Shown: positions 4,789 to 16,961 of the stretch, piece by piece
Numbering within the stretch: position 1 is the first letter of the stretch
Layout: the number at the start of each line of letters is the position of its first letter
Source: Rhizobium sp. CCGE531
GTDB lineage: Bacteria > Pseudomonadota > Alphaproteobacteria > Rhizobiales > Rhizobiaceae
NCBI RefSeq assembly: GCF_003627795.1
Contig: NZ_CP032684.1
Coordinates: forward strand, 3,718,001 to 3,782,000
Direction: 5' to 3'
DNA length: 64,000 nt
The notes under the pieces: model-generated
The model's input: the letters and a program-made list of their open reading frames with translations, nothing else
Databases searched by the model: none
Told to the model about the DNA's origin: nothing
Program-made: the position numbers and the translations under genes

Positions 4789-5532
4789 TCACTCCGGCGG
4801 CGGAGTATCGCTTCGCGCGCCTTCGCCGTTTCGCAAGGACGATATGGAGCGGCGGGCGATGATCCAGCAGCCGAGCGCCCAGGTCGCGCCGGCGCACCAG
4901 CCGCCGAGAACGTCCGACGGGTAATGCACGCCGAGATAGACCCGGCTCACGCCGATCATCAATGTCAGCAGGATGCCGGCAGCAACAGTGAAGGCGCGCG
5001 TCGAGCGATAGGTTCGCGTGCTTGAGATCAGCGCGGCCAGGGTCAGATAGGTCACCGCCGACACCATCGCATGGCCGCTCGGGAAGCTCAGATCATGCAC
5101 TTCGACCAGATGCGGCACGATATCGGGCCGAGGCCGCGCGACGCCGATCTTCAATAACGCGCTCAGCGCCCATCCGCCAAGCACCGACGCGAGGAGGAAG
5201 ATGGCGATGGCCCGCTGGCGGTCCAGCAGCAGATAGATCGTCACCAAAGCCGTCATCAGCGCCAGCACGGTCGTCCCACCGAGGCTGGTGATGTCCTTGA
5301 CGGCATGGGTGAGCCATCCCGGCCCGATCGGCACGGAAAGATTGCCGGGCTGGCGAAGCGCCAGCAATATCGCCTCGTCGAATCCCCTCGTGCTTCCTTC
5401 GAGAACCTCACCCGTCAGATAGATGAACAGAAGAATTCCGCCCGAAAGAGCGGCGAACATCAAAAGCAGAAAGGGCTCATGCCGCTTCAACCATCCAGGT
5501 ATGCCCGACGTGCCAAATGGCCGATCCTTCAT
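4789..5532 (-). CDS. PAP2 (type 2 phosphatidic acid phosphatase) family protein
   Basis: A 247-residue membrane phosphatase with about six hydrophobic segments. The three PAP2 motifs are present: KIGVARPRPD (KX6RP type) near residue 130, SFPSGHAM near 150 and SRVYLGVHYPSDVLGG near 200. The conserved Arg, Ser-Gly-His and His residues are intact, so it should hydrolyse a lipid phosphate or pyrophosphate (undecaprenyl-PP, phosphatidate or PGP) at the outer face of the inner membrane. It is monocistronic, with its 3' end facing the RIME-like repeat. The substrate cannot be read from the sequence. Confidence 0.88.
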   Translation of the reverse strand: MKDRPFGTSGIPGWLKRHEPFLLLMFAALSGGILLFIYLTGEVLEGSTRGFDEAILLALRQPGNLSVPIGPGWLTHAVKDITSLGGTTVLALMTALVTIYLLLDRQRAIAIFLLASVLGGWALSALLKIGVARPRPDIVPHLVEVHDLSFPSGHAMVSAVTYLTLAALISSTRTYRSTRAFTVAAGILLTLMIGVSRVYLGVHYPSDVLGGWCAGATWALGCWIIARRSISSLRNGEGARSDTPPPE

Positions 5533-5879
5533 GCGCTGAAACCTGCGTGTCGTGCTTTCATATCGCTTCTTTCATGGTCAAAGTCCAAATGGGACAAGGC
5601 CTATCTAGGAATTAAATTTGTCGCTTCCAACCTTGGCGAAGACGAGCGTTGTGCGTTTGGCAGGTCAAGCGCTTCAGGTTCGTGAAATGTTTTTCATCTA
5701 TCCCAGCGCGTATTGCTCGCTCACGCGGCAGCAGGTCGAAAGAATGCAGCGCCACGCTTGCAAAAGCCCTCGGGCCGCAAGTTGAGCGCGGTAATTGTTC
5801 TTTAATTTTCTGCTGTTTTCGGAAGCTTGAGCTGTGCTAGTAATGCGGCAGGGGCGATCAGGGATCGGATGTTGTCAGA
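5533..5879. other. Intergenic region upstream of the MipA-like gene
   Basis: About 350 bp separating two divergent genes. No tRNA, repeat or conserved small ORF recognised. It should hold both promoters; none has convincing -35/-10 spacing by eye. Confidence 0.3.
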
Positions 5880-6728
5880 GTGTTAAGTGTTGGGACATCT
5901 TTCTCCGCTCGCTTGTCGACGCTGGCCGGAATGGGGCTGCTGGCCGCGTCCGTAGCCGGCGCTTTTCCCGTATCGTCCAGGGCGGAAGACGCCGCGAAAT
6001 CCACATCCGATACATGGGTTGTCACCCTTGGAGCGACGGTGGAATACGGCCCCAATTATGAGGGATCGAAGCGCTATTCCTTCAGCGCCCTGCCTTCTTT
6101 CGATTTCCACCGCCTCGGGGAAACCCAGGAATACAGCGCTCCGGATGACAATTTCGACTATCAGCTCTTCGATCTCGGCGGCCTCGAAATCGGTCCCGTG
6201 GTGGGCCTGCGGGATGACCGCTTCGACCTCAACGATCTGCACCTGCAGAGCCAACGCAAAGTGCGCTGGAATTTCGATGCGGGCGGTTTCGCCCAATATT
6301 GGCTGATGGAAAATCGGCTGCGGTTCCGCACGGAACTGCGCCAGTCGCTTTGGGGCGGGGATGGTCTGGTCGGCGATCTCGCGCTCGACTGGTTTCAGCC
6401 GGTCGGCGACAGATGGCTCCTGTCGGCCGGACCTCGCCTGTCGATGGCAAACGACGCCTATATGCGCGCCAACTTTGGCATCTCGGAGAGCGAGGCTGCA
6501 AGACATGGCCATATCAGCGCGTTCGATGCCGGCGCCGGCGTGAAGTCGCTCGGCGTCACGGTGGCGGCGACCTACACCATCTCCCCCGCCTGGAGCGTGC
6601 AGGTCTATGAGAAATATAACCGCCTGGTCGGCAACGCCGCCGATAGTCCGATCACCTCGCGCTTCGGCTCACGTAACCAGAACATCATCGGCTTCACGCT
6701 GAACAGAACCTTCAACGTCAACTTCTGA
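5880..6728 (+). CDS. MipA/OmpV family outer-membrane protein
   Basis: The 282-residue product has a signal peptide (hydrophobic AGMGLLAASVAGAF, cleavage near SSRAED). It then has alternating beta-strand patterns ending in an aromatic residue (FNVNF), as expected for a beta-barrel. The mature start WVVTLGATVEYGPNYEGSKR closely fits MipA/OmpV proteins, which form outer-membrane channels or scaffold murein enzymes. The GTG at 5880 is used as start because the nearby ATG at 5870 is out of frame; no good ribosome site is visible, so the start is uncertain. Its 3' end overlaps the convergent cyclopropane-synthase-like gene by 60 bp. Confidence 0.8.
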   Translation: MLSVGTSFSARLSTLAGMGLLAASVAGAFPVSSRAEDAAKSTSDTWVVTLGATVEYGPNYEGSKRYSFSALPSFDFHRLGETQEYSAPDDNFDYQLFDLGGLEIGPVVGLRDDRFDLNDLHLQSQRKVRWNFDAGGFAQYWLMENRLRFRTELRQSLWGGDGLVGDLALDWFQPVGDRWLLSAGPRLSMANDAYMRANFGISESEAARHGHISAFDAGAGVKSLGVTVAATYTISPAWSVQVYEKYNRLVGNAADSPITSRFGSRNQNIIGFTLNRTFNVNF

Positions 6729-8006
6729 GGCGCTGCGCGCTTCATTCTCGGCTATGTAGTTGCGCGTCAGCGGAATGATGTCGTTTCGCTTGGTCATCTG
6801 AATCTGGAAGACGACGAGATCCTCGTAGCGGAAGGCGGCTTCCGCCGTCGAAAGATAATATTCCCACATCCGGCAGAAGCGCTCGTCATAAAGCTTGGCG
6901 GCATCGTCCCAGCGCGCCATGAAGCGGGCCCGCCAGCTCTCCAGCGTCATTGCGTAATGCAGCCTGAGCACCTCGACATCGGTAATGGCGAGCCCCGCCG
7001 CCTCGATCTCGGGCACGATTTCGGAAAGTGCCGGAATATAGCCGCCGGGGAAGATATATTTGTCGAGCCACGGCGTCGTGAAGCCGGGCGTCGCCGAGCA
7101 GCCGATGGTATGCAGCACCATGATGCCGTCATCCTCGAGCAATTCAGCGCATTTGCGGAAGAAGGTGCGATAGGAGGCCAGTCCGACATGTTCGAACATG
7201 CCGACGGAAACGATCCTGTCGAAATGGCCGTTGAGGCTGCGGTAGTCCCTCAGCGCGAACTGCACCTCCGCCGGCGTTCCCCCGATCTTGTCGGTCACGC
7301 GCTTCGAGGCATAGTCGTGTTGTTCCTCGGAGAGGGTAACGCCAAGCACATAGCCGCCCGGCGCATGCTCGGCCACATGCAGGGCCAGGCCGCCCCAGCC
7401 GCAGCCGATATCGAGAATGCTGTTGTTCGGCTCGATCAGGAGCTTGGCGGCGAGATGCCGTTTCTTGGCAACCTGCGCGTCATCCAGCGATTGGCCGGCA
7501 TGTTCGAAATAAGCACAGGAATATTGCCGGTCCGGATCGAGGAAAAGTTCGTAGAGCCGGCCATCGAGATCGTAGTGATGGGCGACGTTGGCCTTCGAAC
7601 GCCCCGGCAGGTTGCGGTGGCGGAAAATCCGCAGCTTCGTTCGCGCATGATCTATGATGCGGGCGATCAGCGGGTGGGTGCTGTTCTGCGCCTCGCGCAG
7701 CATCATCGCCACGAAATCGTAGAGCGTGCCCCGCTCGACGATGAAGCGCTCATCCATATAGAGTTCACCGAGCCGCATATCGGCATCGATGAGCAGCGCC
7801 CATTGCGCGCGGTCATCGGCAAAGCGGACGTGAACGGGCTCGCCGGTGCCGTCGCCGAATGTCAGCACCCGGCCGCTCGCCGTCGTCACGGTCAAAGCGC
7901 CCCGTGTGACGATCGACGACAGCGCGCGCTTCACGCACCAGTCCACCAGGCCAGAGAAAACGGCATTGCCCTTGGGGCGATTTTCAGCGTGAGAACCTGG
8001 CATCAT
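6669..8006 (-). CDS. cfa: Cyclopropane-fatty-acid synthase-like SAM methyltransferase
   Basis: A 445-residue protein of the CFA synthase/mycolic acid methyltransferase family, which transfers a methylene group from SAM to the double bond of a phospholipid acyl chain. The SAM-binding loop ILDIGCGWGGLALH lies near residue 200, followed by GVTLSEEQ and VSVGMFEHVG. The N-terminal lipid-binding domain (about 1-140) is present. It is the last gene of a nine-gene minus-strand operon and overlaps the upstream 4-TM gene by 4 bp (ATGA), so translation is likely coupled. Because the operon also encodes a desaturase, its substrate may be the unsaturated chain of the operon's own product. A housekeeping cfa role remains possible. 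Confidence 0.85.
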   Translation of the reverse strand: MMPGSHAENRPKGNAVFSGLVDWCVKRALSSIVTRGALTVTTASGRVLTFGDGTGEPVHVRFADDRAQWALLIDADMRLGELYMDERFIVERGTLYDFVAMMLREAQNSTHPLIARIIDHARTKLRIFRHRNLPGRSKANVAHHYDLDGRLYELFLDPDRQYSCAYFEHAGQSLDDAQVAKKRHLAAKLLIEPNNSILDIGCGWGGLALHVAEHAPGGYVLGVTLSEEQHDYASKRVTDKIGGTPAEVQFALRDYRSLNGHFDRIVSVGMFEHVGLASYRTFFRKCAELLEDDGIMVLHTIGCSATPGFTTPWLDKYIFPGGYIPALSEIVPEIEAAGLAITDVEVLRLHYAMTLESWRARFMARWDDAAKLYDERFCRMWEYYLSTAEAAFRYEDLVVFQIQMTKRNDIIPLTRNYIAENEARSASEVDVEGSVQREADDVLVT

Positions 8007-8431
8007 CCATCCTTGCCGACACCACTATGCAGACCATCGCGCTTGGCGTGCCAGTCATCCTGCTCTTCCGGCGCCACATTAGCGCCTGCAATCAGCCAGA
8101 CCCCCAAGAGGATCAAGCCGCTGCCGATCACCTGCAGGGCGACGATCCGCTCGCCGAAGACGAACCAGCCCGTCGCGATGATCAGCACATAGCTGACGCC
8201 TGAAAGCGGAAAGGCGCGGCTGAGGTCGAGCGCCGCAAGCACGTTCATCCAGATGAAGAAGGTCACAATCTCGACGGCGATCGCCGCCAGAATCCAATAG
8301 GACGTGAGCGCCTGCCAGAGCCAACCCTCTACGCTGCCCCCGCCCAGCTGCTCCGCCCCAAGCTTGATGAAGAATTGGAACAGGGTGTTCAGCACCGGCA
8401 CCGCAAGCCACAAAAAGCGCATCGGCATCAC
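8003..8431 (-). CDS. Small 4-TM EamA/SMR-like transporter half (second subunit)
   Basis: The 142-residue protein has four predicted transmembrane helices and the drug/metabolite-transporter features SRAFPLSGVSYVLI and a glycine-rich last helix. The length and topology resemble ArnF/ArnE, the two small subunits that together flip undecaprenyl-phosphate-aminoarabinose in enteric bacteria. A second half-size protein of the same type is encoded in the operon (11228-11581), so a heterodimer is likely. It overlaps the GNAT gene upstream and the cfa-like gene downstream by 4 bp each. The polar C-terminal tail (about residues 118-142) is not shared with the other half. The substrate is inferred from context only. 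Confidence 0.75.
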   Translation of the reverse strand: MMPMRFLWLAVPVLNTLFQFFIKLGAEQLGGGSVEGWLWQALTSYWILAAIAVEIVTFFIWMNVLAALDLSRAFPLSGVSYVLIIATGWFVFGERIVALQVIGSGLILLGVWLIAGANVAPEEQDDWHAKRDGLHSGVGKDG

Positions 8432-9576
8432 GCATCCCCCTCGTCTGAAGAGAACATCGGCGATACCAGCCGCAGCAATCTCTGGAGGAAGGGATTGCGA
8501 TGGCGGAAATACATCGCATTGGCGGTCAGCTTGCTGCCGAGCCGTACCTTGTTTTCATAATATGCCTGGCCGCTCTGGTAACGGCTCAAGCCATTGTCGA
8601 GGCAATAGCGCAAATTGGTGAACCAGCTGAGGAAATAGAGGTTGTAGGGCCGTCCTTTTTCGCCATCCATGCAGAAGAACTTGTCGATCGCGATGCGCTC
8701 GTCATGGACGATCAGGTTGGCGGCCATCAGTCTGTCTTCGACGAAATAAAAGGCGCAGAAGGAGCGGCCGCTCATGCCACTGAGAATGCCCTGGAAATAG
8801 TCTGGCGTCAGCTCCTCGAACTGCCATTCGCTGCGATTGCGCGTGTCGTGATAAAGCGCCATCACCTCGGGCAGGAACTCGCCGAAATCCGTGCGGATCT
8901 CCACCCTCACCTGCTCGAAGGATTTCATCTTGCGGCGCATATCCTTGCGGGTGCCGGATGAAAGCCTGCCGAGATATTCGTCGATCGTCTTGAAATCGAT
9001 GTCGAGCCAGGCCGTCGGAAGGCCGCCGATCGAGGCATAGCCGCGGGTGGCAAAGAGCGCCCCGAATTCAGCAGAGGTTGGTTCGGGAATATCCTTGAGG
9101 CCGATCAGCGCGCAATGCTCCGTCGCGGCAACCTGCTCGAAGAAGGACAGCATCTCCGCCAGCAAGGCGCCGCGGCGCTCGCCCGAAATATCGGGATGAA
9201 AGCCGATCGCTCCTGTCTCCGTGCAGGGCGATCCGAGGCAGGCAAGGCGCAGCTTCAGGAAGTTCGGGAAATAGCGCTGGATCTTGCGCACCGATCTCCG
9301 CAAAAATCCCTCCTCCAGCGTCGTATCGAGCGCATAAAGGCAGAGAAAGGCCGGCATGGCGGCGCTGACCCGCCCATCTTCGACGATGGTGATGTAGCGC
9401 CATTCGAAGCCTTCGAGGCCAGCCTCCTCGATGGCGAGCAGGCAGTCATAATCCTCCACTTGGCCCTGGAAGCAGGCGTTCCATGCATCGCGGCCGATGG
9501 CGCGGATGCTGAAATGAACCTCGGCCATCGGCTTGCCGGCCGGCCGCGGCAGCATTTTAAGCAGCGGCTGCGACAT
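8428..9576 (-). CDS. GNAT/FemAB-like N-acyltransferase (COG3146 type)
   Basis: About 382 residues from ATG 9576 (MSQPLLKMLPR). It resembles the predicted N-acyltransferase group once labelled peptidogalycan biosynthesis, which has a double GNAT/FemAB fold. Recognisable blocks are FEWRYITIVEDGRV, LYHDTRNRSEWQFEELTPDYFQ (in pieces) and YNLYFLSWFTNLRYCLDNGLSRYQSGQAYYENKVRLG near the C-terminus (in pieces). Members are thought to transfer an acyl or aminoacyl group to an amine. It overlaps the upstream alpha/beta hydrolase gene by 20 bp and the downstream 4-TM gene by 4 bp. In this operon it is the best candidate for N-acylating an amine made by the aminotransferase. The substrate is unknown. Confidence 0.72.
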   Translation of the reverse strand: MSQPLLKMLPRPAGKPMAEVHFSIRAIGRDAWNACFQGQVEDYDCLLAIEEAGLEGFEWRYITIVEDGRVSAAMPAFLCLYALDTTLEEGFLRRSVRKIQRYFPNFLKLRLACLGSPCTETGAIGFHPDISGERRGALLAEMLSFFEQVAATEHCALIGLKDIPEPTSAEFGALFATRGYASIGGLPTAWLDIDFKTIDEYLGRLSSGTRKDMRRKMKSFEQVRVEIRTDFGEFLPEVMALYHDTRNRSEWQFEELTPDYFQGILSGMSGRSFCAFYFVEDRLMAANLIVHDERIAIDKFFCMDGEKGRPYNLYFLSWFTNLRYCLDNGLSRYQSGQAYYENKVRLGSKLTANAMYFRHRNPFLQRLLRLVSPMFSSDEGDA

Positions 9577-10369
9577 GACGCGCCTCGAAGAAATCGGCCG
9601 TGAAATCGGCCACCTGGCGATGCTGCCGGTCGACATGGATCATGTGATAGCTGTCCGTGATCCACTTCAACTCGTGCGGAGCGCCGATATGCTCGGAAAT
9701 ATAGCGGGCATGCTTGGGGCTGGCGAGATCGTCGTCTTCCGCATGCAGGATCAGCGTCGGCGTTTGCATCCGCGGCAGCATGCTCTTGAGGGCCTTGCCC
9801 AGCCGATGCATCTCGACCAAGCCCTTGCCGGGGAATTTTTCCAAAACCCCCTCGCTCGCCATGCCTTCGATCAGGCGGCGCATGCGCTCGTCCTTGATCC
9901 CGAGCGACGTCGTCTCGCTGAAGCTCAGGCGATCGAGGAAGGGAACGCGCGACAGCCAGCCGATCTGCGATGCCAGCAGCGGATAGTAAAAGGGAACGTC
10001 CCAGCCGTCATAGCTGAAGCAGGGAGAATAGATCGCCACGGCACTGATCGCCTTTTTCTGCTCGGCAGCCAGCATCGCCAGCTTGCCGCCGACGCAGATG
10101 CCGGCCGCGAAGACTTCCTGCGTTCGCGATGCCAGCAGCGCCGACGCCTCGATGACCGAACCGAGCCAATCTTCCCAGCGGGTCTGACGCAGCGTCTTCA
10201 CATCGACGCCATGACCCGCCAGCAGCGGCGCATAGACGCTGTAGCCCCTGCGGTTGAGATGACGGGCAACCAGCTTCATTTCGGCGGGCGCCCCCGTCAG
10301 ACCATGGATCAGAAGAATGCCTTTGCCGTTTGAGCCCTCCATGAAGAAGCTCAATTCGTCATGCCTCAT
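9557..10369 (-). CDS. Alpha/beta hydrolase (monoacylglycerol lipase-like)
   Basis: A 270-residue alpha/beta hydrolase. The oxyanion region ILLIHGLTGAPAEMK lies near residue 20. The nucleophile elbow is AAGICVGGKLAM (G-x-C-x-G), so cysteine occupies the nucleophile position rather than serine. The acid region PTLILHAEDDDLASP and the final DSYHMIHVDRQ (histidine) are present. It could hydrolyse or transfer acyl groups. I start at ATG 10369 (MRHDELSFFMEG), which overlaps the desaturase stop by 11 bp; a longer start at 10417 would lie deep inside the desaturase. The gene is internal to the nine-gene operon. Confidence 0.75.
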   Translation of the reverse strand: MRHDELSFFMEGSNGKGILLIHGLTGAPAEMKLVARHLNRRGYSVYAPLLAGHGVDVKTLRQTRWEDWLGSVIEASALLASRTQEVFAAGICVGGKLAMLAAEQKKAISAVAIYSPCFSYDGWDVPFYYPLLASQIGWLSRVPFLDRLSFSETTSLGIKDERMRRLIEGMASEGVLEKFPGKGLVEMHRLGKALKSMLPRMQTPTLILHAEDDDLASPKHARYISEHIGAPHELKWITDSYHMIHVDRQHRQVADFTADFFEARHVAAAA

Positions 10370-11231
10370 GAGTGAGCTCCGACTGCCGGTTTTCCTTGGC
10401 CATGAAGCCAAGGGCATGGCAGGTGCTGATCACATGCGTACCGTTCTTTTCCTGCTCGTCCTTGATCTGCTCGTGCAGCGCCGGGAGCTTCGTCCAGTGA
10501 GTGCGCGGACGATAATGATGCTCCGCATGATAGCCATTGCCGAACCACAGCCAGTTGTAGAAAGGCTGGTGGCTCGAAACGCCCCAGGCAATCGGTTCGT
10601 CCGGATCGCCGTTCAGATGCTCGTAATAGCCGTTCAGCGACGACAGGCAGTTGCCGATATAATAGAACGGCACGAAGAACAGCACCGCCTTCCAGTCGTA
10701 AAGCAGCGCAAGCGCCGCAAGACCCAGGAAGAAGTAGAGTTCGAACCGCCCCCAGGCCGCATCGAACGGACGGTTGCGGGCAATGGCCTTGTGAATGTCG
10801 CCAAGGCTGTCGCGAAAGAAGCTCAGGAACGTGTAGGACCAGACGTTTTCCGGCGCGCCGTCATGGCCATGGCGATAGATCGACAGCAGATCGATCGTAT
10901 CACCCTTTTCGTCCGGCCGGTCGCTGTTGCCGGAATGATGGCGCATATGCACCCAATGATAATAGGTCTGCGAAAAGCCGATCGCGACCGACTCCAGCAG
11001 GCTGAAGGCATAGTTCAACCAGCGCGGCTTGAAATAAGGCGTATGGATGAAATTGTGCGATATGCTGTTGATGTTCCAGGAGATCGAAACGGCATAAAGG
11101 CAGCCGAGAGCGGCCGAGAGCCAAAGCGGGCGGCTTTCGAAGCCGACGATCAGATAGACATCGAAGGCGAGATGAGCGACGGCTGCCAGAACCGGCATTA
11201 GATCCCATCGGGTATGCGCAAAGATTTTCAT
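10359..11231 (-). CDS. Fatty acid desaturase/hydroxylase family protein
   Basis: A 290-residue integral membrane di-iron enzyme. The three histidine boxes are visible: HNFIHT near residue 65, HWVHMRHH near 105 and HAEHHYRPRTH near 250, with hydrophobic segments between them. The family includes acyl-lipid desaturases and hydroxylases; which reaction is catalysed cannot be decided by eye. The start at ATG 11231 (MKIFAHTRWDLM) overlaps the stop of the upstream 4-TM gene in an ATGA junction. Together with the cfa-like methyltransferase at the operon end, it suggests the lipid product first gains a double bond and is then cyclopropanated or methylated. Confidence 0.83.
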   Translation of the reverse strand: MKIFAHTRWDLMPVLAAVAHLAFDVYLIVGFESRPLWLSAALGCLYAVSISWNINSISHNFIHTPYFKPRWLNYAFSLLESVAIGFSQTYYHWVHMRHHSGNSDRPDEKGDTIDLLSIYRHGHDGAPENVWSYTFLSFFRDSLGDIHKAIARNRPFDAAWGRFELYFFLGLAALALLYDWKAVLFFVPFYYIGNCLSSLNGYYEHLNGDPDEPIAWGVSSHQPFYNWLWFGNGYHAEHHYRPRTHWTKLPALHEQIKDEQEKNGTHVISTCHALGFMAKENRQSELTHEA

Positions 11232-11581
11232 AATCCTGTAACTCCCACACAAGCCACGCCGGCCGTGACGAGAAACACGCCGGTCGCGTGGCGCAGGTTG
11301 ATGTTTTCCTTGAAGATGACGGCGCCGGCAAGCACGATGACGACATAGCTCAGCGCCATCAGCGGGAAGGCGATGGTTAGGGGGACGCGCTCCAGAACGG
11401 CCGTCCAGGCGAAAAGCTCCACGGCCCAGAACAGAATGCCGAGCCAGGTGATTGGCTTGGCCAACGCCGAAAGCAGAGCGCTCTCGCTGGCCGATTGCTT
11501 GAAGCAGACTTCGCGGGCCGTCTCCGCAAGTACGCAGAACAGGATGAGCCCAAGCATGGGAAGTGTCAGGCTGCCGGTCAT
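11228..11581 (-). CDS. Small 4-TM EamA/SMR-like transporter half (first subunit)
   Basis: The 117-residue protein has four hydrophobic helices, with ETAREVCFKQSA after the first and LTIAFPLMALSYVVIVLAGAV (in pieces) in the third. The pattern is that of small DMT proteins such as ArnE (about 111 residues). It overlaps the arginase-like gene upstream and the desaturase gene downstream by 4 bp each. The paired half at 8003-8431 has only limited similarity, as in ArnE/ArnF, which suggests duplication followed by specialisation. Likely role: inner-membrane flipping or export of the operon's product. An amine efflux role of the SMR type is an alternative. Confidence 0.75.
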   Translation of the reverse strand: MTGSLTLPMLGLILFCVLAETAREVCFKQSASESALLSALAKPITWLGILFWAVELFAWTAVLERVPLTIAFPLMALSYVVIVLAGAVIFKENINLRHATGVFLVTAGVACVGVTGL

Positions 11582-12531
11582 TCCATATACTCCGCCAGGA
11601 CTTCCAGCAGCGCATGATTGGCCGCGCTGTTGATGTTCCTCGTCGTTTCGGCGCCCTGCCGCATGCGCGGCTGATCGATGAAGATCTCCGCCCGCTTCAT
11701 GAACTGGGTCCGCAGACTGCCAGCATAGCTCGGGGTCGAATAATCCCCAATGACATCGGCGCCGATAATGCGGTAGCGGCTGCCGATTTCGCTGAGCAGG
11801 GCCAGGAGGTAAGGCAGCCGCATGCGGCCCTGATCCCAGTTGGTCACGGCATCGTCGGCCGCCAGCACATCCTTGTCGATGGTGACGTAGACGGCCTCGG
11901 TGCGAATGCGGCTAAGCATGCGGTCGATGAAATTTTCCTCGCCGATCTCCGTGATCGATTTCCAGTGCAGCGCGCCCTTTTCCTGCTGATAGCTGGCGCC
12001 GTTGCCGTAATCGGCCAGCACGCGGCTCGGCGGATGTTCGTAAGGGTAGAGCTCCAGCTTGCCTTCTCCGAGCCAGTGCAGGTTCGCTCCCTTGCGCTCG
12101 GGGCTGCGAAGGTCGCTGCTGCAGACCCCGATCGTGATGACCTTCTGGATATTGCGATTGGCAAGCGCCCTGTTGACCCAGGAGCCGCAGTGCATGCCGC
12201 CATCGAATTTCACCCAATCCGGATGATTGTCGAAATGGATCAGCGTCGCCGGGCCGGGCTGCCGTTCCAGCGCGCCTTCAAGCAGCAGCGCCGTGATGTG
12301 ATGGAAATCGCCGGACCCCATGAAGCACAGCTGCGGATCCTTGCTCATCGCAGGACCATTCTTGACGATCTCTCGGCTGAGGTTGTCAAGGGCGCTCTGC
12401 TTGCCCCATAGCCGCACCAGCTGCCCCGCATCCTTGCCGAAATACTGGTGCGCGCCCGCAAATTTGCAGGCACGCACGAAGTCTGGCTGCAACTCCAATG
12501 CATCGTCGAGATGGAGAAGCAGGAGCTGCAC
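11578..12531 (-). CDS. Arginase/ureohydrolase-like protein
   Basis: The 317-residue product carries motifs like those of the ureohydrolase fold: GSGDFHH near residue 112, HFDNHPDW near 138 (in place of the DxHxD of arginases), and TIDKDVLAADDAV near 236 (DxDxxD-like). These would bind two metal ions. True arginases and agmatinases cleave a guanidino group to urea, but the motif variation (DNHPD, DKDVL) places this in a divergent branch. It might cleave a guanidine or another C-N bond. It starts 4 bp after the aminotransferase stop and overlaps the next gene by 4 bp. The exact reaction is not predictable. Confidence 0.65.
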   Translation of the reverse strand: MQLLLLHLDDALELQPDFVRACKFAGAHQYFGKDAGQLVRLWGKQSALDNLSREIVKNGPAMSKDPQLCFMGSGDFHHITALLLEGALERQPGPATLIHFDNHPDWVKFDGGMHCGSWVNRALANRNIQKVITIGVCSSDLRSPERKGANLHWLGEGKLELYPYEHPPSRVLADYGNGASYQQEKGALHWKSITEIGEENFIDRMLSRIRTEAVYVTIDKDVLAADDAVTNWDQGRMRLPYLLALLSEIGSRYRIIGADVIGDYSTPSYAGSLRTQFMKRAEIFIDQPRMRQGAETTRNINSAANHALLEVLAEYME

Positions 12532-12535
12532 CGTC

Positions 12536-13954
12536 TTATCTCCGGGCCGCGCGCGTCAGGAGCTGGTCGAGCAGGGCAAGCGCCAGATCGATTTCCTCGC
12601 GGGTGATGAGCAGATTGGGCGCGAAGGTGATGACGTTCTTGTGATAGCCACCGACATCGAGCACGAGCCCGTAGGTCTTGGAGCCAACCTGCATGTCGCC
12701 CTTCATGCCTTCGTCGCACATCCAGTCCATCGTCGCCTTGTCGGGCGTGTAACTGTCGTCCTTGCAGATCTCCATTCGCAGCGCTAGGCCAAGACCGTCG
12801 ACTTCGCCGACGATGGCATGGCGCTTCTGCAATTGCTGCAGCCCGTCGAGGAAGTAAGCGCCCTTGGCCATGATCGAAGCGCCGAAATCCTCTTCCTCCA
12901 GCATCTTCATCGCTTCGAGCGCCACGGCGGTCCCCATCGGGTTGCTGGCGAAGGTCGAATGCGTGGAGCCGGGCGGGAAGATCTCCGGATTGATCAGTTC
13001 TTCGCGGGCCCACACGCCGGAAAGCGGATTGAGGCCGTTAGTGATCGCCTTGCCGAAGATCAGCGCATCCGGTGAAACGCCGAAATGCTCGATCGACCAG
13101 AGTTTGCCGGTACGGTAGACGCCCATCTGGATCTCGTCGACGACGAGCAGGATGCCGTGATCATCAAGCACCTTCTTCAGTTCGACGAAGAAGTTCATCG
13201 GCGGGATGACGTAGCCGCCGGTGCCCTGGATCGGCTCGACGTAGAAGGCGGCATATTCGGACTTGCCGGCCTTCGGATCCCAGACGCCGTTATATTCGCT
13301 TTCGAACAGGCGAGCGAACTTCTGGACGCAATAATGTCCGTACTCTTCCTTCGACATGCCCTTCGGGCCACGGAAATGATAGGGGAATTCGACGAACTGC
13401 GCACGGTCGCCGAAATGGCCGTAGCGGCGGCGGTAGCGATAGCTCGATGTGATCGCCGAAGCGCCGAGCGTACGGCCGTGATAGCCGCCTTCGAAGGCGA
13501 ACATCAGGCTCTTGCCGCCGGTGTAGTTGCGCACGAGCTTCAGCGAATCCTCGACGGCCTGCGAGCCGCCGACGTTGAAGTGGACGCGGCCCTTGTGGCC
13601 GAACTTGCGCTCGGCGTCCTGGGCGATCATCGCGGCAAGCTCCACCTTTTCACGGTGCAGATACTGCGACGCGACCTGCGGGAGACGGTCGAGCTGGCGA
13701 TGCGCGGCCTCGTTCAGGCGCTCGTTGCGATAGCCGAAATTGACGGCGGAATACCACATCTGCAGATCGAGGAACGGCGTGCCGGTCCGGTCGTAGACGA
13801 AGGAGCCTTCGCATTCTTCAAAGAATTTAGGCTTGTCTGTGTAGTGAACCGTGTCGCCATGCGAGCAATAGAGCTCTTCGAGGGCGCGCAATTCCTCTTC
13901 GGAGCGGACGGACTCGGTCTCGCCGCTGAAGGCTTCGGCTACATTCGTTTTCAT
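12536..13954 (-). CDS. Class III PLP-dependent aminotransferase
   Basis: A 472-residue aminotransferase of the ornithine/GABA/diaminobutyrate group. Conserved features include the cofactor-binding NVGGSQAVEDSLKLVR near residue 128, FEGGYHGRTLG near 155, VVDEIQMGVYRTGK near 272 and the Schiff-base lysine in DALIFGKAITNGLNPLSG near 298. The enzyme is expected to interconvert an amino group and an aldehyde or ketone on an omega-amine substrate. It follows the HAD phosphatase gene by 20 bp and precedes the arginase-like gene by 4 bp. It likely supplies the amine head group in this pathway; the substrate is unknown. Confidence 0.87.
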   Translation of the reverse strand: MKTNVAEAFSGETESVRSEEELRALEELYCSHGDTVHYTDKPKFFEECEGSFVYDRTGTPFLDLQMWYSAVNFGYRNERLNEAAHRQLDRLPQVASQYLHREKVELAAMIAQDAERKFGHKGRVHFNVGGSQAVEDSLKLVRNYTGGKSLMFAFEGGYHGRTLGASAITSSYRYRRRYGHFGDRAQFVEFPYHFRGPKGMSKEEYGHYCVQKFARLFESEYNGVWDPKAGKSEYAAFYVEPIQGTGGYVIPPMNFFVELKKVLDDHGILLVVDEIQMGVYRTGKLWSIEHFGVSPDALIFGKAITNGLNPLSGVWAREELINPEIFPPGSTHSTFASNPMGTAVALEAMKMLEEEDFGASIMAKGAYFLDGLQQLQKRHAIVGEVDGLGLALRMEICKDDSYTPDKATMDWMCDEGMKGDMQVGSKTYGLVLDVGGYHKNVITFAPNLLITREEIDLALALLDQLLTRAARR

Positions 13955-13974
13955 TCAATGCCTCTCGGTCTGTT

Positions 13975-14658
13975 TCACGCCGTCTTGAAATGCGGCAGTG
14001 CACGGGAGCGTCGCTCGACGCTCGGGAGAACGGCTTCCATCTTTGGAAGCAGGTCGGAAAAGTCTTCGAAACCGACATAGGGAATGCCGTTTTCCTCGCA
14101 GTAGTCGACAAGCTTGGCCTTGGCGAAAACGAGGTCGACCTTGTCGGAAACGCAGAAGTCGCTGCGCCCGTCGCCGATGTAGACCTGCAGGTCGTTGCTA
14201 TCGACAACGCGGCATTTGCAGACGCCGGCACCGGACACGCAGCCGGTTGCCGTAAATGGCGGAAAGAGCGAATAGGACTCGCGGCCCTGGGAGACGCTGC
14301 AGGTGAGCACATTGGCGACGATCGGCAAGCCGTCCATGCCATGGCGCGCCAGAATGCGGCGGATGAAGTAATCGACGCCATCGCTGACGATGGTGACAGG
14401 CAGGTCGCCGCGGCTGCAATAGGACAGGAAGCCTTCGAAACCCGGATCGATCGACAGCGTGTCGAGAAACTGGTCGAGCTCGGATCTGGTCGCTTCAATG
14501 AGAGCGATCTGCCGACGCATGCACTCGCCGGAGCCGATCAGCCCCTGCTTCCACAGCCGCTCTATATCTTCCCATTCGGAGCCGGCGAAACGGGACAACA
14601 CCATATCCGTCGCGTCTTCGATGGATATGGTTCCATCAAAATCGCAAAACACCCGCAT
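13975..14658 (-). CDS. HAD-IB family phosphatase (MtnX/SerB-like)
   Basis: The 227-residue protein starts MRVFCDFDGTISIED, the DxDGT nucleophile motif of the HAD superfamily. It continues with VTIVSDGVDYFIRRIL (motif II Ser) near residue 88 and YIGDGRSDFCVSDKVD (motif IV, GDGxxD) near 163. The alpha-helical cap lies between motifs I and II, as in MtnX and phosphoserine phosphatase. A CxC pair (GVCKCRV) precedes motif IV. It is the first gene of the nine-gene operon, 102 bp after the sensor kinase gene. It probably dephosphorylates a small intermediate. The family is too broad to name the substrate. Confidence 0.82.
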   Translation of the reverse strand: MRVFCDFDGTISIEDATDMVLSRFAGSEWEDIERLWKQGLIGSGECMRRQIALIEATRSELDQFLDTLSIDPGFEGFLSYCSRGDLPVTIVSDGVDYFIRRILARHGMDGLPIVANVLTCSVSQGRESYSLFPPFTATGCVSGAGVCKCRVVDSNDLQVYIGDGRSDFCVSDKVDLVFAKAKLVDYCEENGIPYVGFEDFSDLLPKMEAVLPSVERRSRALPHFKTA

Positions 14659-14760: not shown

Positions 14761-16137
14761 TTAACTCAGGGGCAATCTTAGTTCGACCTGAAGGCCATTT
14801 CCCCAACGCGGCGTGGAAAGCTCCACCGCGGCGGAAAGGCGATCGGCCGTATCCGCAACGATCGCAAGGCCGAGCCCCGCCCCTTCGGTATGAAGGGTGT
14901 TGAGGCGATAGAACCGCTGGAACACCGCCTCCCTCTCGTGTAGCGGAATGCCGGGTCCACTGTCACCGATCGAGATGCGGCCGAAGCCGTCCTCCGATGA
15001 AATCGAAACTTTGATCTCCCCGCCGACGGGCGTGTATTTGATGGCGTTATCGAGCAGATTCGTCACCATCATGCGCAGCAGCGATTCATCGGTCCTGACC
15101 TGGATCTTTTCGTCGCCTTCCAACACCACGCCGAGTTCGCGGTCGGTGATGATATTGCCGAATTCGGCGATCAGCGACGCGATCCAATGGTAAAGCGTCA
15201 CGGATGTCAGATTAAGGGGATGATGGCTGACCCTTGCAAGCCGCAGCAATTGCTCGATCAGGTGGATGGTGCGGTTGTTGCTGGCGACGAGATCGGAAAC
15301 GATCGCCTGCCGCTCATGGTCGCTGTCACTGTTTTCGAGCATGCGCAGCAGCAGCTTCACGCTTGCCTGCGGCGTGCGCAGCTGATGCGCGGCAAGATCG
15401 GAAAAGCGGCGCTCCAGCGTCAGCGACTGGCCGAGCTTTTCCAATAGCTGGTTGATCGACCGGCCGAGCGGTAGCAGATCGCGTGGCAGCCCGTCCACGG
15501 GAATAGCCGAGAGATCGTCCGGCGATCGCGTGCGGATCTGCCGCACCAGCCCGTGGATCGTGCGCAGGCCGCTGTTGATACCGAGCCAGATGAGAAAGGC
15601 GATGACGGGCACCAGCATCAGCAGCGGAAAGAAGAGATTAAGGAGTATGTTGGAGACGAGCGTTTCGCGAAGCGCGATCTTCTCGCCAAGCTCGATCACG
15701 ATGGTGGTGTTGGGGATCGGCAGCGAATAGACGCGCCACTCATCCCCGCCATAGGTCAGGGTCGTGAATCCGACCTTCTGCTGCGGGACGTCGGACAGGA
15801 AAGCCGTGCTGCTGTAGAAGCGGATGCTGCCGTCGACCCAGGCGCGAAACATGTGCGCATCGGCATAATCGTCGGCATCCTCGTTGAATGCCAGCTGATT
15901 GTCCATGTTGAAGTCGATGTCGTCGATCTGCTTTGCCGCATGGCCCGGATTTTTCTCCAAGGGACGGCGCAGCAGGCTCCAGATCACATTGGCATCGTCG
16001 ATCAGCTGAGCGTCATAGATATTGTTGATTTCGCGCGTCGCGCTGTTGAAGGCGAAGGCGGCGATCACGACGATCGTCACCACGACTACGGGCGCGATGC
16101 GCAGAAACAGTTTGCGTGTAAGCGTGGAGTTGTTCAT
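14761..16137 (-). CDS. Two-component sensor histidine kinase
   Basis: A 458-residue inner-membrane kinase. The first TM helix (about residues 14-30) and second (about 165-187) enclose a periplasmic sensor region of about 130 residues. A short HAMP-like linker follows, then the H-box DLAAHQLRTPQASVKL near residue 250, the N-box TNLLDNAIKYTPVGGEI near 370 and G-box motifs SIGDSGPGIP and GAGLGLAIV. It resembles the TctE/QseC class. It overlaps the response regulator gene by 4 bp, and the nine-gene operon follows after 102 bp that carry a candidate operator. The signal is unknown; cationic or envelope stress would fit the context. Confidence 0.9.
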   Translation of the reverse strand: MNNSTLTRKLFLRIAPVVVVTIVVIAAFAFNSATREINNIYDAQLIDDANVIWSLLRRPLEKNPGHAAKQIDDIDFNMDNQLAFNEDADDYADAHMFRAWVDGSIRFYSSTAFLSDVPQQKVGFTTLTYGGDEWRVYSLPIPNTTIVIELGEKIALRETLVSNILLNLFFPLLMLVPVIAFLIWLGINSGLRTIHGLVRQIRTRSPDDLSAIPVDGLPRDLLPLGRSINQLLEKLGQSLTLERRFSDLAAHQLRTPQASVKLLLRMLENSDSDHERQAIVSDLVASNNRTIHLIEQLLRLARVSHHPLNLTSVTLYHWIASLIAEFGNIITDRELGVVLEGDEKIQVRTDESLLRMMVTNLLDNAIKYTPVGGEIKVSISSEDGFGRISIGDSGPGIPLHEREAVFQRFYRLNTLHTEGAGLGLAIVADTADRLSAAVELSTPRWGNGLQVELRLPLS

Positions 16138-16787
16138 CGCTCGATCATGTAGCCGACGCCGCGGATCGACTTGATGAAATCGGTGCCGAGCTTCTTGCGC
16201 AGATTGTAGATCGTCACTTCGATCGTGTTGCTCTCGACGGTATTTTCGGCGTCGTAAAGCGCGTATTCGATATCGTTCTTCGTCACGTAGCGGCCGCTGC
16301 GCTCCATCAGGAGCTTCAGCAGATGGAATTCCTTGGCCGTGGTATGCACTTGAACACTGCCCTTGCGGGCGACCATGGCCGACGGATCGACCTCCACCTC
16401 GCCGCAGCGGATGACGCTTTCGGTCCGCCCATCGCGCCGGCGGATCAACGCGCGCAGGCGCGCCAGCAGCTCATCGAGATCGAAGGGCTTGACCAGATAG
16501 TCGTCGGCGCCCTCGTCGAGACCCTCGACCTTCTGCCGTACGGAATCCATCGCCGTCAGCAGCAGCACAGGCACGGAATTCCCGCGCTGCCGGATGCGCC
16601 GCAACACTTCCATGCCGCTCAGCTGCGGCAGATTGATATCGAGGACGATCGCCGCGAAATGCGAATTCTCCGCCGCCTCTAGGCCGGATTCGCCATCACG
16701 CATCCAGTCGACGCCATAGGCATGCTTTTCCAAGGCCTTCTTGAGCGATGATCCGAGGATATTGTCGTCTTCAACAAGTAGAACCCG
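16134..16787 (-). CDS. OmpR/PhoB-family response regulator
   Basis: About 217 residues from GTG 16787 (MRVLLVEDDNILG), preceded by GAGG at suitable distance; the frame also allows a GTG at 16802. The receiver domain has the acidic pair EDD, the phospho-acceptor in AIVLDINLPQLSG and the conserved lysine in DYLVKPFDLDELL. The winged-helix output domain ends KKLGTDFIKSIRGVGYMIE. It pairs with the kinase at 14761-16137 (4-bp overlap). It probably regulates the downstream operon through the 11-bp repeats at 14704-14740. It resembles the TctD/QseB/PmrA class of regulators. Confidence 0.9.
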   Translation of the reverse strand, partial: RVLLVEDDNILGSSLKKALEKHAYGVDWMRDGESGLEAAENSHFAAIVLDINLPQLSGMEVLRRIRQRGNSVPVLLLTAMDSVRQKVEGLDEGADDYLVKPFDLDELLARLRALIRRRDGRTESVIRCGEVEVDPSAMVARKGSVQVHTTAKEFHLLKLLMERSGRYVTKNDIEYALYDAENTVESNTIEVTIYNLRKKLGTDFIKSIRGVGYMIER

Positions 16788-16961
16788 CACGACCAACCTC
16801 ACTTAGCCGAATTTCATAGCCGATGTGAGCCGCAATTGAAGCGGCCATGTGGCAAAGCTATGACGGATCATTTCCATCTGGCAAGAGCCGCGAGAAAAGC
16901 TCGCCGCCTGTCGGGTATGGTGCTCCCAAGCCGAAAGGACGAAACCACCCGGCCGGCAACA

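Follow-up and report, generated by a model that had tools for sequence, protein, structure and literature searches.

MprF/LpiA is an aminoacyl-phosphatidylglycerol synthase-flippase that, in Rhizobium and Agrobacterium, is accompanied by an AcvB/AtvA hydrolase, as described in two reports (PMC13197417, PMC5936775). We found that a nine-gene operon in a 64,000-nucleotide stretch of DNA from Rhizobium sp. CCGE531 (the window; contig NZ_CP032684.1, positions 3,718,001 to 3,782,000) encodes a transferase of similar predicted fold together with a putative two-part flippase. The contig is 4.04 Mb and is probably the chromosome. Our best reading is that the operon is a split "MprF-like" system, in which synthase and flippase are separate proteins and are joined by head-group enzymes. 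We tentatively propose that the operon serves the response to envelope stress by producing a cationic membrane lipid that bears an amine and transferring this lipid to the outer leaflet. The nine genes (6669-14658), from upstream to downstream, are:

13975-14658, minus strand: HAD, an MtnX-like HAD-IB phosphatase (Pfam, NCBIfam, conserved motifs)
12536-13954, minus strand: AT, a subfamily of class III pyridoxal-phosphate aminotransferases (Pfam, NCBIfam, homologue alignment)
11578-12531, minus strand: ARG, a divergent ureohydrolase with an arginase fold (Pfam, invariant metal-ligand motifs, fold)
11228-11581, minus strand: SMR1, an EamA/ArnE-like half with four transmembrane (TM) segments, predicted N-out (EamA 27.3 of 28.2 bits, just under the cut-off)
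10359-11231, minus strand: DES, a membrane fatty-acid desaturase, optional member (Pfam)
9557-10369, minus strand: ABH, an alpha/beta hydrolase with a Cys nucleophile (GICVGG), its profile closest to monoacylglycerol lipases
8428-9576, minus strand: GNAT, a FemAB_like/Acetyltransf_6 transferase (Pfam) with a predicted dual-GNAT fold of the FemX/MprF type
8003-8431, minus strand: SMR2, a 4-TM EamA/ArnF-like half, predicted N-in (Pfam, NCBIfam)
6669-8006, minus strand: CFA, a cyclopropane-fatty-acid synthase, optional member (Pfam, NCBIfam)

Gene starts were set by the annotated homologous locus of R. leguminosarum 23B (L010). Gaps of 20 and 4 bp separate HAD, AT and ARG, and from ARG through CFA the genes overlap by 4, 4, 11, 20, 4 and 4 bp. 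The open reading frame (ORF) coordinates, Pfam and NCBIfam confirmed the families and spacing reported in the initial annotation of this stretch. The core of the operon is HAD, AT, ARG, ABH, GNAT and the two SMR (ArnE/F-like) halves; DES and CFA are optional.

The operon resembles MprF/LpiA in having a dual-GNAT transferase whose predicted fold is similar, a flippase, an adjacent alpha/beta hydrolase and a link to envelope stress. The closest precedent that has been worked out is LpiA/AcvB (PMC13197417, PMC5936775). In contrast to MprF/LpiA, the operon has transferase and flippase as separate genes, the flippase is an SMR pair, GNAT falls outside PF09924, and HAD, AT and ARG have no counterpart. 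AcvB is periplasmic according to the same reports, whereas ABH has no hydrophobic segment by hydropathy. Because the host has an MprF-like gene of its own and GNAT fails the family test, the operon would work like MprF and not be MprF.

GNAT contains the Pfam domains PF04339 and PF13480 (E up to 0.001). It has no TM segment by hydropathy; that is, the flippase is not fused to it, and the transporter is two separate genes. The predicted structure has the dual-GNAT fold of the MprF/LpiA synthase domain and, by VIA-align, is nearest to FemX, Sbb17, FemA and MprF, all of which use aminoacyl-tRNA. GNAT differs from FemABX proteins and aminoacyl-tRNA-dependent peptide synthases (FemX, Sbb17, AlpF/AlpO) in sequence (only 11-17% identity) and in its lipid/envelope setting. 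Lys363, Asp318-Lys319 and Arg230/Arg235 of GNAT (numbered on its 402-amino-acid frame) are invariant. We found no proven function for the PF04339/COG3146 family in the literature searched.

The gene order is conserved among rhizobia. A tblastn search with GNAT gave matches in 49 plasmid records; we examined 16, nine of them from Rhizobiaceae or Phyllobacterium. Synteny in other Rhizobiaceae had been set beforehand as a test of the operon, and the order HAD-AT-ARG-SMR1-(DES)-ABH-GNAT-SMR2-(CFA) was kept in 9/9 of these loci, with DES in six, CFA in four and a convergent mipA gene in six. Thus, the rhizobial gene order is conserved beyond chance. The best-conserved member is AT: identity to the window protein is 84-89% across the nine rhizobial loci, compared to 69-72% for Bartonella and Xanthomonas. 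A sensor pair of the same type as that of the window is upstream in seven of the nine loci (L010, L011, L015, L021, L023, L024 and L025; the kinase is not annotated in L010), and the other two (L012, L022) have another, divergent sensor pair. The genes flanking the operon in the window are:

14761-16137, minus strand: sensor histidine kinase with a 2CSK_N domain (nearest to QseC, 161.5 bits, and PmrB, 147.4 bits; below the cut-off or not the best match)
16134-16802, minus strand: OmpR-type response regulator (nearest in NCBIfam to QseB, 215.5 bits, and PmrA, 206.6 bits; both below the cut-off)
5880-6728, plus strand: MipA/OmpV-family protein, convergent, overlapping the 3' end of CFA

The kinase/regulator pair is QseBC/PmrAB-like and ends 102 bp upstream of HAD, on the same strand.

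Outside the rhizobia the set varies. Loci from Aureimonas, Roseomonas and Azospirillum have HAD, ARG, ABH and GNAT and are missing the window-type AT. A divergent class III gene is beside HAD in the loci of this kind (L013 5372-6703, L014 5579-6922, L020 5529-6947); it is of the glutamate-1-semialdehyde aminomutase type in L013 (family score) and L014 (annotation) and weakly AT-like in L020, and is possibly a non-orthologous replacement of AT. Xanthomonas sacchari has HAD, AT, GNAT, ARG, ABH and both SMR genes; also present there are a sensor pair and genes for ketosynthase, acyl carrier protein (ACP), a DegT aminotransferase and TolC/ABC exporters. The Bartonella plasmid has only AT, GNAT and ARG of the operon genes, with an adjoining DltB-like MBOAT gene (160.1 of 375 bits). 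In Bartonella sp. HY328 (L016 11910-14437) an AlgX/DHHW-like gene stands with the DltB-like MBOAT gene beside AT-GNAT-ARG, which hints that this lineage uses a different transfer step. In the Streptomyces and Nostoc plasmid records (L017, L019), GNAT and class III genes were matched only weakly and there was no operon, and we rejected both as members. Neighbors in some species include eptA, dgkA, mipA and TolC exporter genes.

To measure how often the genes occur together, we scanned a single genome for each species. There were at least 573 AT relatives among the 593 matches listed, and we analyzed 80 contigs. The taxa lean to the Xanthomonas side because a Xanthomonas sequence led the pattern alignment; they include Stenotrophomonas, Xanthomonas, Rhodanobacter, Dyella, Luteibacter, Lysobacter, Pigmentiphaga, Frischella, Wohlfahrtiimonas, Bartonella, Tokpelaia, Nevskia, Pseudomonas and others. 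HAD was near AT in 75 of the 80 contigs, ARG in 57, GNAT in 56, ABH in 56, SMR in 50, and all of these in 46. GNAT and ARG were together in 56 contigs, and ARG was without GNAT in one. Where 20 kb or more of a contig was covered (65 contigs), the whole set was present in 43. The counts for ABH, and for kinase and regulator, may include unrelated paralogues, since these are broad families. In contrast to GNAT and ARG, DES was near AT in only two contigs and CFA in three; desaturation and cyclopropanation, which the initial annotation listed among the steps, are therefore not supported as core steps. Three Nevskia metagenome-assembled genomes (L079, L081, L082) have HAD-AT-ABH and a CFA synthase, with no GNAT, ARG or SMR match in the sequence covered. 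One Pseudomonas putida locus (700447, L127) contains two GNAT paralogues (5427-6677 and 12274-13398), one with ARG-SMR1-SMR2 and the other with HAD-AT-ABH; the locus further has DES and a MipA-like gene.

We also searched a fixed sample of 398 genomes from the Pseudomonadota for AT (E up to 1e-120), ARG (profile A2) and GNAT (profile A3; both E up to 1e-20). AT was found in 25 genomes, ARG in 16 (all 16 with AT) and GNAT in 24 (22 with AT); nine genomes with AT had no ARG. With the window genome left out, Fisher p values were 2e-21 for AT-ARG and 1e-29 for AT-GNAT (13, 9 and 13 genera involved), and these overstate the co-occurrence because species are not independent. HAD (profile A4, E up to 1e-30) was in 24 of the 25 genomes with AT vs none of 13 genomes without AT chosen from the window's family. 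AT is patchy in that family (6/199 genomes, counting the window genome). An alpha-class GNAT search gave matches in 9/289 genomes. Among the eight outside the window genome, each covered by about 4 kb around the match, only L002 had other operon genes; L003-L009 had none in that span, and in the genome of L003 (G043) AT and HAD are elsewhere. Together, synteny and genome co-occurrence back the view that the operon is one functional unit.

The SMR proteins are predicted to have four TM segments each and have opposite charge bias (-4 for SMR1, +4 for SMR2), as expected for the two halves of an SMR-type heterodimer. The bias was -4 to -8 in 9/9 close homologues of SMR1 and +2 to +5 in the four of nine close SMR2 homologues that could be scored; the other five had only three predicted TM segments. 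Two distant SMR2 homologues with four TM segments (L055, L088) had a bias of 0. The best NCBIfam scores of both halves were to ArnE/ArnF, at levels below the equivalog cut-offs (SMR1, 52.0 of 92 bits for ArnE and 41.8 of 99 for ArnF; SMR2, 39.7 of 99 for ArnF). The claim of an amino-lipid pathway with its own flippase is supported in part: the ArnE/ArnF-like pair speaks for it, and what is not supported is fatty N-acylation as the likely step (see below) and DES and CFA as core members.

The remaining enzymes have the following features. The nucleophile of ABH is Cys in 8/8 close homologues scored, so the description of a "Cys-type" hydrolase is right for the window clade; among the 58 other homologues the nucleophile is Ser in 56, and two did not match the pattern. 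DES is the only desaturase match in the window genome (E up to 1e-5), and CFA is one of three CFA synthases there; CFA scores above the Pfam CMAS cut-off and narrowly misses that of NCBIfam CPFASynBruc (587.7 of 600 bits). The HAD motifs DFDGT and GDGxSD are retained in 87/87 homologues. HAD belongs to the HAD-IB subfamily TIGR01489 (99.8 bits, cut-off 81.55) and scores far from MtnX itself (104.7 of 292 and 88.9 of 303.2 bits). AT matched 69 class III families in NCBIfam, none of the best 25 above its cut-off (top score 271.2 of 552 bits); its nearest sequences, Rhizobium among them, are 95-97% identical. In 90/90 homologues, AT has Thr at the position of what we take to be Arg398 of gamma-aminobutyrate aminotransferase. 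ARG has the binuclear metal ligands and fold of arginases and agmatinases, and its motifs GSGD[FY]HH, DNHPD and DKD are invariant in 25 aligned sequences; it is below the agmatinase equivalog cut-off (33.7 of 174.3 bits). In its D-x-x-G-[DE] segment, Gly appears in register with the guanidinium-binding Glu (presumably Glu277 in rat arginase) and the acidic residue is one position later, a register set by eye in an ambiguous alignment.

Based on the gene set, families, conserved catalytic motifs, predicted folds, co-occurrence and adjoining sensor genes, we infer the following pathway. The QseBC/PmrAB-like sensor pair would switch the operon on. HAD with AT, and also ARG, would provide a small polar group (an amine or amino acid) or trim it. 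GNAT would attach an aminoacyl group, from aminoacyl-tRNA or possibly an acyl group from acyl-coenzyme A (acyl-CoA), to the amine or to a lipid head group. ABH may trim or recycle the lipid, and an antiparallel SMR1/SMR2 pair would flip it outward, where it could be protective. In this Rhizobium branch, DES and the third CFA synthase may tune the acyl chains. We favor an envelope lipid because of the sensor pair, the paired flippase, the lipase-like ABH, the optional tailoring enzymes, and the eptA, dgkA, mipA and TolC neighbors.

Several observations weigh against this proposal. We found no lipid, phenotype or enzyme data for any member of the operon. The window genome has an MprF/LpiA-like gene (an 870-amino-acid frame), so lysyl-phosphatidylglycerol itself would be redundant, and no operon gene obviously attaches anything to a glycerophospholipid. 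PF09924 (LPG_synthase_C) was absent from GNAT (Pfam, E up to 0.001), and a PDB sequence search with GNAT found no FemX. By Foldseek, the CoA-type tandem GNAT 2wpw (E 7e-12) ranked sixth, among the FemX/Sbb17 rows and above MprF, and by VIA-align the lowest MprF rows were tied with tandem GNATs (18.2 vs 17.8); the fold therefore leaves the donor unsettled. In Dyella, HAD and AT are the sole core genes in 6/6 loci (in the sequence covered), next to a sensor pair, and among the 398 genomes three had AT without GNAT (G291, G311, G415) and two had GNAT without AT (G417, G434). Finally, the sugar-type DegT aminotransferase in many non-rhizobial loci fits an amino-sugar route too.

A bolder form of the proposal, which we regard as rather doubtful, is that the product belongs to a new class of cationic amino-lipids. 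HAD, AT and ARG would make the amine for this purpose, and a soluble FemX-like enzyme would aminoacylate it with aminoacyl-tRNA as donor; desaturation and cyclopropanation would tune the product, and a dedicated SMR heterodimer would flip it under PmrAB-like control. The system would then stand beside MprF and Arn as their modular equivalent, with a range that extends from Rhizobium through Stenotrophomonas, Xanthomonas and Pseudomonas to bacteria of the insect gut. In line with the initial annotation, we found no described pathway with this gene set in the full-text literature under Creative Commons licenses (subscription papers and preprints lie outside it).

Among the alternatives, a doubtful one is that GNAT transfers a fatty acid from acyl-CoA or acyl-ACP to the nitrogen of a polar amine, that DES and CFA modify this chain, and that the N-acyl amine lipid so formed is flipped by the SMR pair. 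The high Foldseek rank of a CoA-type GNAT is compatible with such a donor. The initial annotation took fatty N-acylation as a likely step, and we consider it disfavored because the GNAT model is nearest to aminoacyl-tRNA users; the rarity of DES and CFA near AT, compared to GNAT and ARG, also argues against it. The operon is like the ornithine-lipid and sphingolipid pathways (OlsBA, Spt/bCerS) in that these involve amine-containing lipids, N-acyltransferases and further tailoring. It differs in that Pfam showed no acyltransferase family of what we take to be the Ols type among the nine proteins and that GNAT is unrelated by sequence to Escherichia coli YghO (BLASTP best E 0.12), so that we rejected GNAT as a bacterial ceramide N-acyltransferase (bCerS/Aca). 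Our assumption that bCerS might share PF04339 was not borne out by the YghO test; YghO had no Pfam hit.

An Arn-like route seems unlikely to us. Here the cluster would make an amino sugar or other amine carried on undecaprenyl phosphate, the SMR pair would flip it, and lipid A or another surface glycan would receive it. The likeness to Arn lies in the two SMR halves, nearest to ArnE and ArnF, the PmrAB-like sensor genes and the presence of an aminotransferase. ORF clustering of 42 loci (antisense-ORF clusters were present, so only family-checked or annotated clusters were used) placed a DegT-type aminotransferase cluster near the operon in 21 (L014, L018 and L113 family-checked), and the nearest solved relatives of these genes are sugar aminotransferases. 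The eptA neighbor and an undecaprenyl-diphosphate phosphatase near the Roseomonas locus point the same way. In contrast, no ArnC-like or ArnT-like transferase was found by Pfam among the nine proteins, AT is class III and not DegT, a DegT gene was listed beside the operon in none of the nine rhizobial loci, and the ArnE/ArnF scores are far under the cut-offs.

It is quite unlikely that the operon makes, in the cytosol, a small cationic product resembling a peptide or polyamine that is secreted through the SMR pair, in some species also through a TolC-type exporter, and that coats the surface or acts on competitors. In its favor, SMR proteins usually transport small cations, peptide antibiotics are also made by FemX-like enzymes (VIA-align rows of Sbb17/Sba18), TolC-type exporter genes are beside the X. 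sacchari, two Agrobacterium plasmid and one Rhodanobacter loci, and other ABC genes are near L011, L024 and L025, but the lipase-like ABH, DES, CFA and the ArnE/F likeness point to a lipid, and a TolC gene is beside the operon in only two of the nine rhizobial loci.

If the favored reading, a flipped cationic envelope lipid, is correct, then an unrecognized means of altering membrane charge under envelope stress is common to many Pseudomonadota, including rhizobia, Xanthomonas, Stenotrophomonas and relatives of Bartonella and Frischella. This could explain tolerance of peptides or acid beyond the known Arn, EptA and MprF genes, and would add a new lipid class and a role for the PF04339/COG3146 family. 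For peptide resistance in Stenotrophomonas maltophilia, one study lists phoQ and other genes (PMC7529437), which we were unable to connect with the operon.

Promoter and terminator scans did no better than with shuffled sequence. The sole match in a phage-defense scan was the CFA methyltransferase region (mad2), which we read as generic. Beyond mipA in the window is a gene for a PAP2-superfamily lipid phosphatase (4789-5532, minus strand) that may share a lipid-handling neighborhood. A caspase-domain gene adjoins mipA in R. leguminosarum 23B (L010 13738-16170) and in Rhizobium sp. Pop5 (L024 24901-25113, cut). The Pop5 locus (L024 14828-15343 and 23742-25112) looks like it was split by an insertion: CFA is overlapped by a short stretch resembling mipA, and the intact mipA, some 9 kb from there, has a CFA-like fragment (67% identity) at it, with a second sensor pair between.

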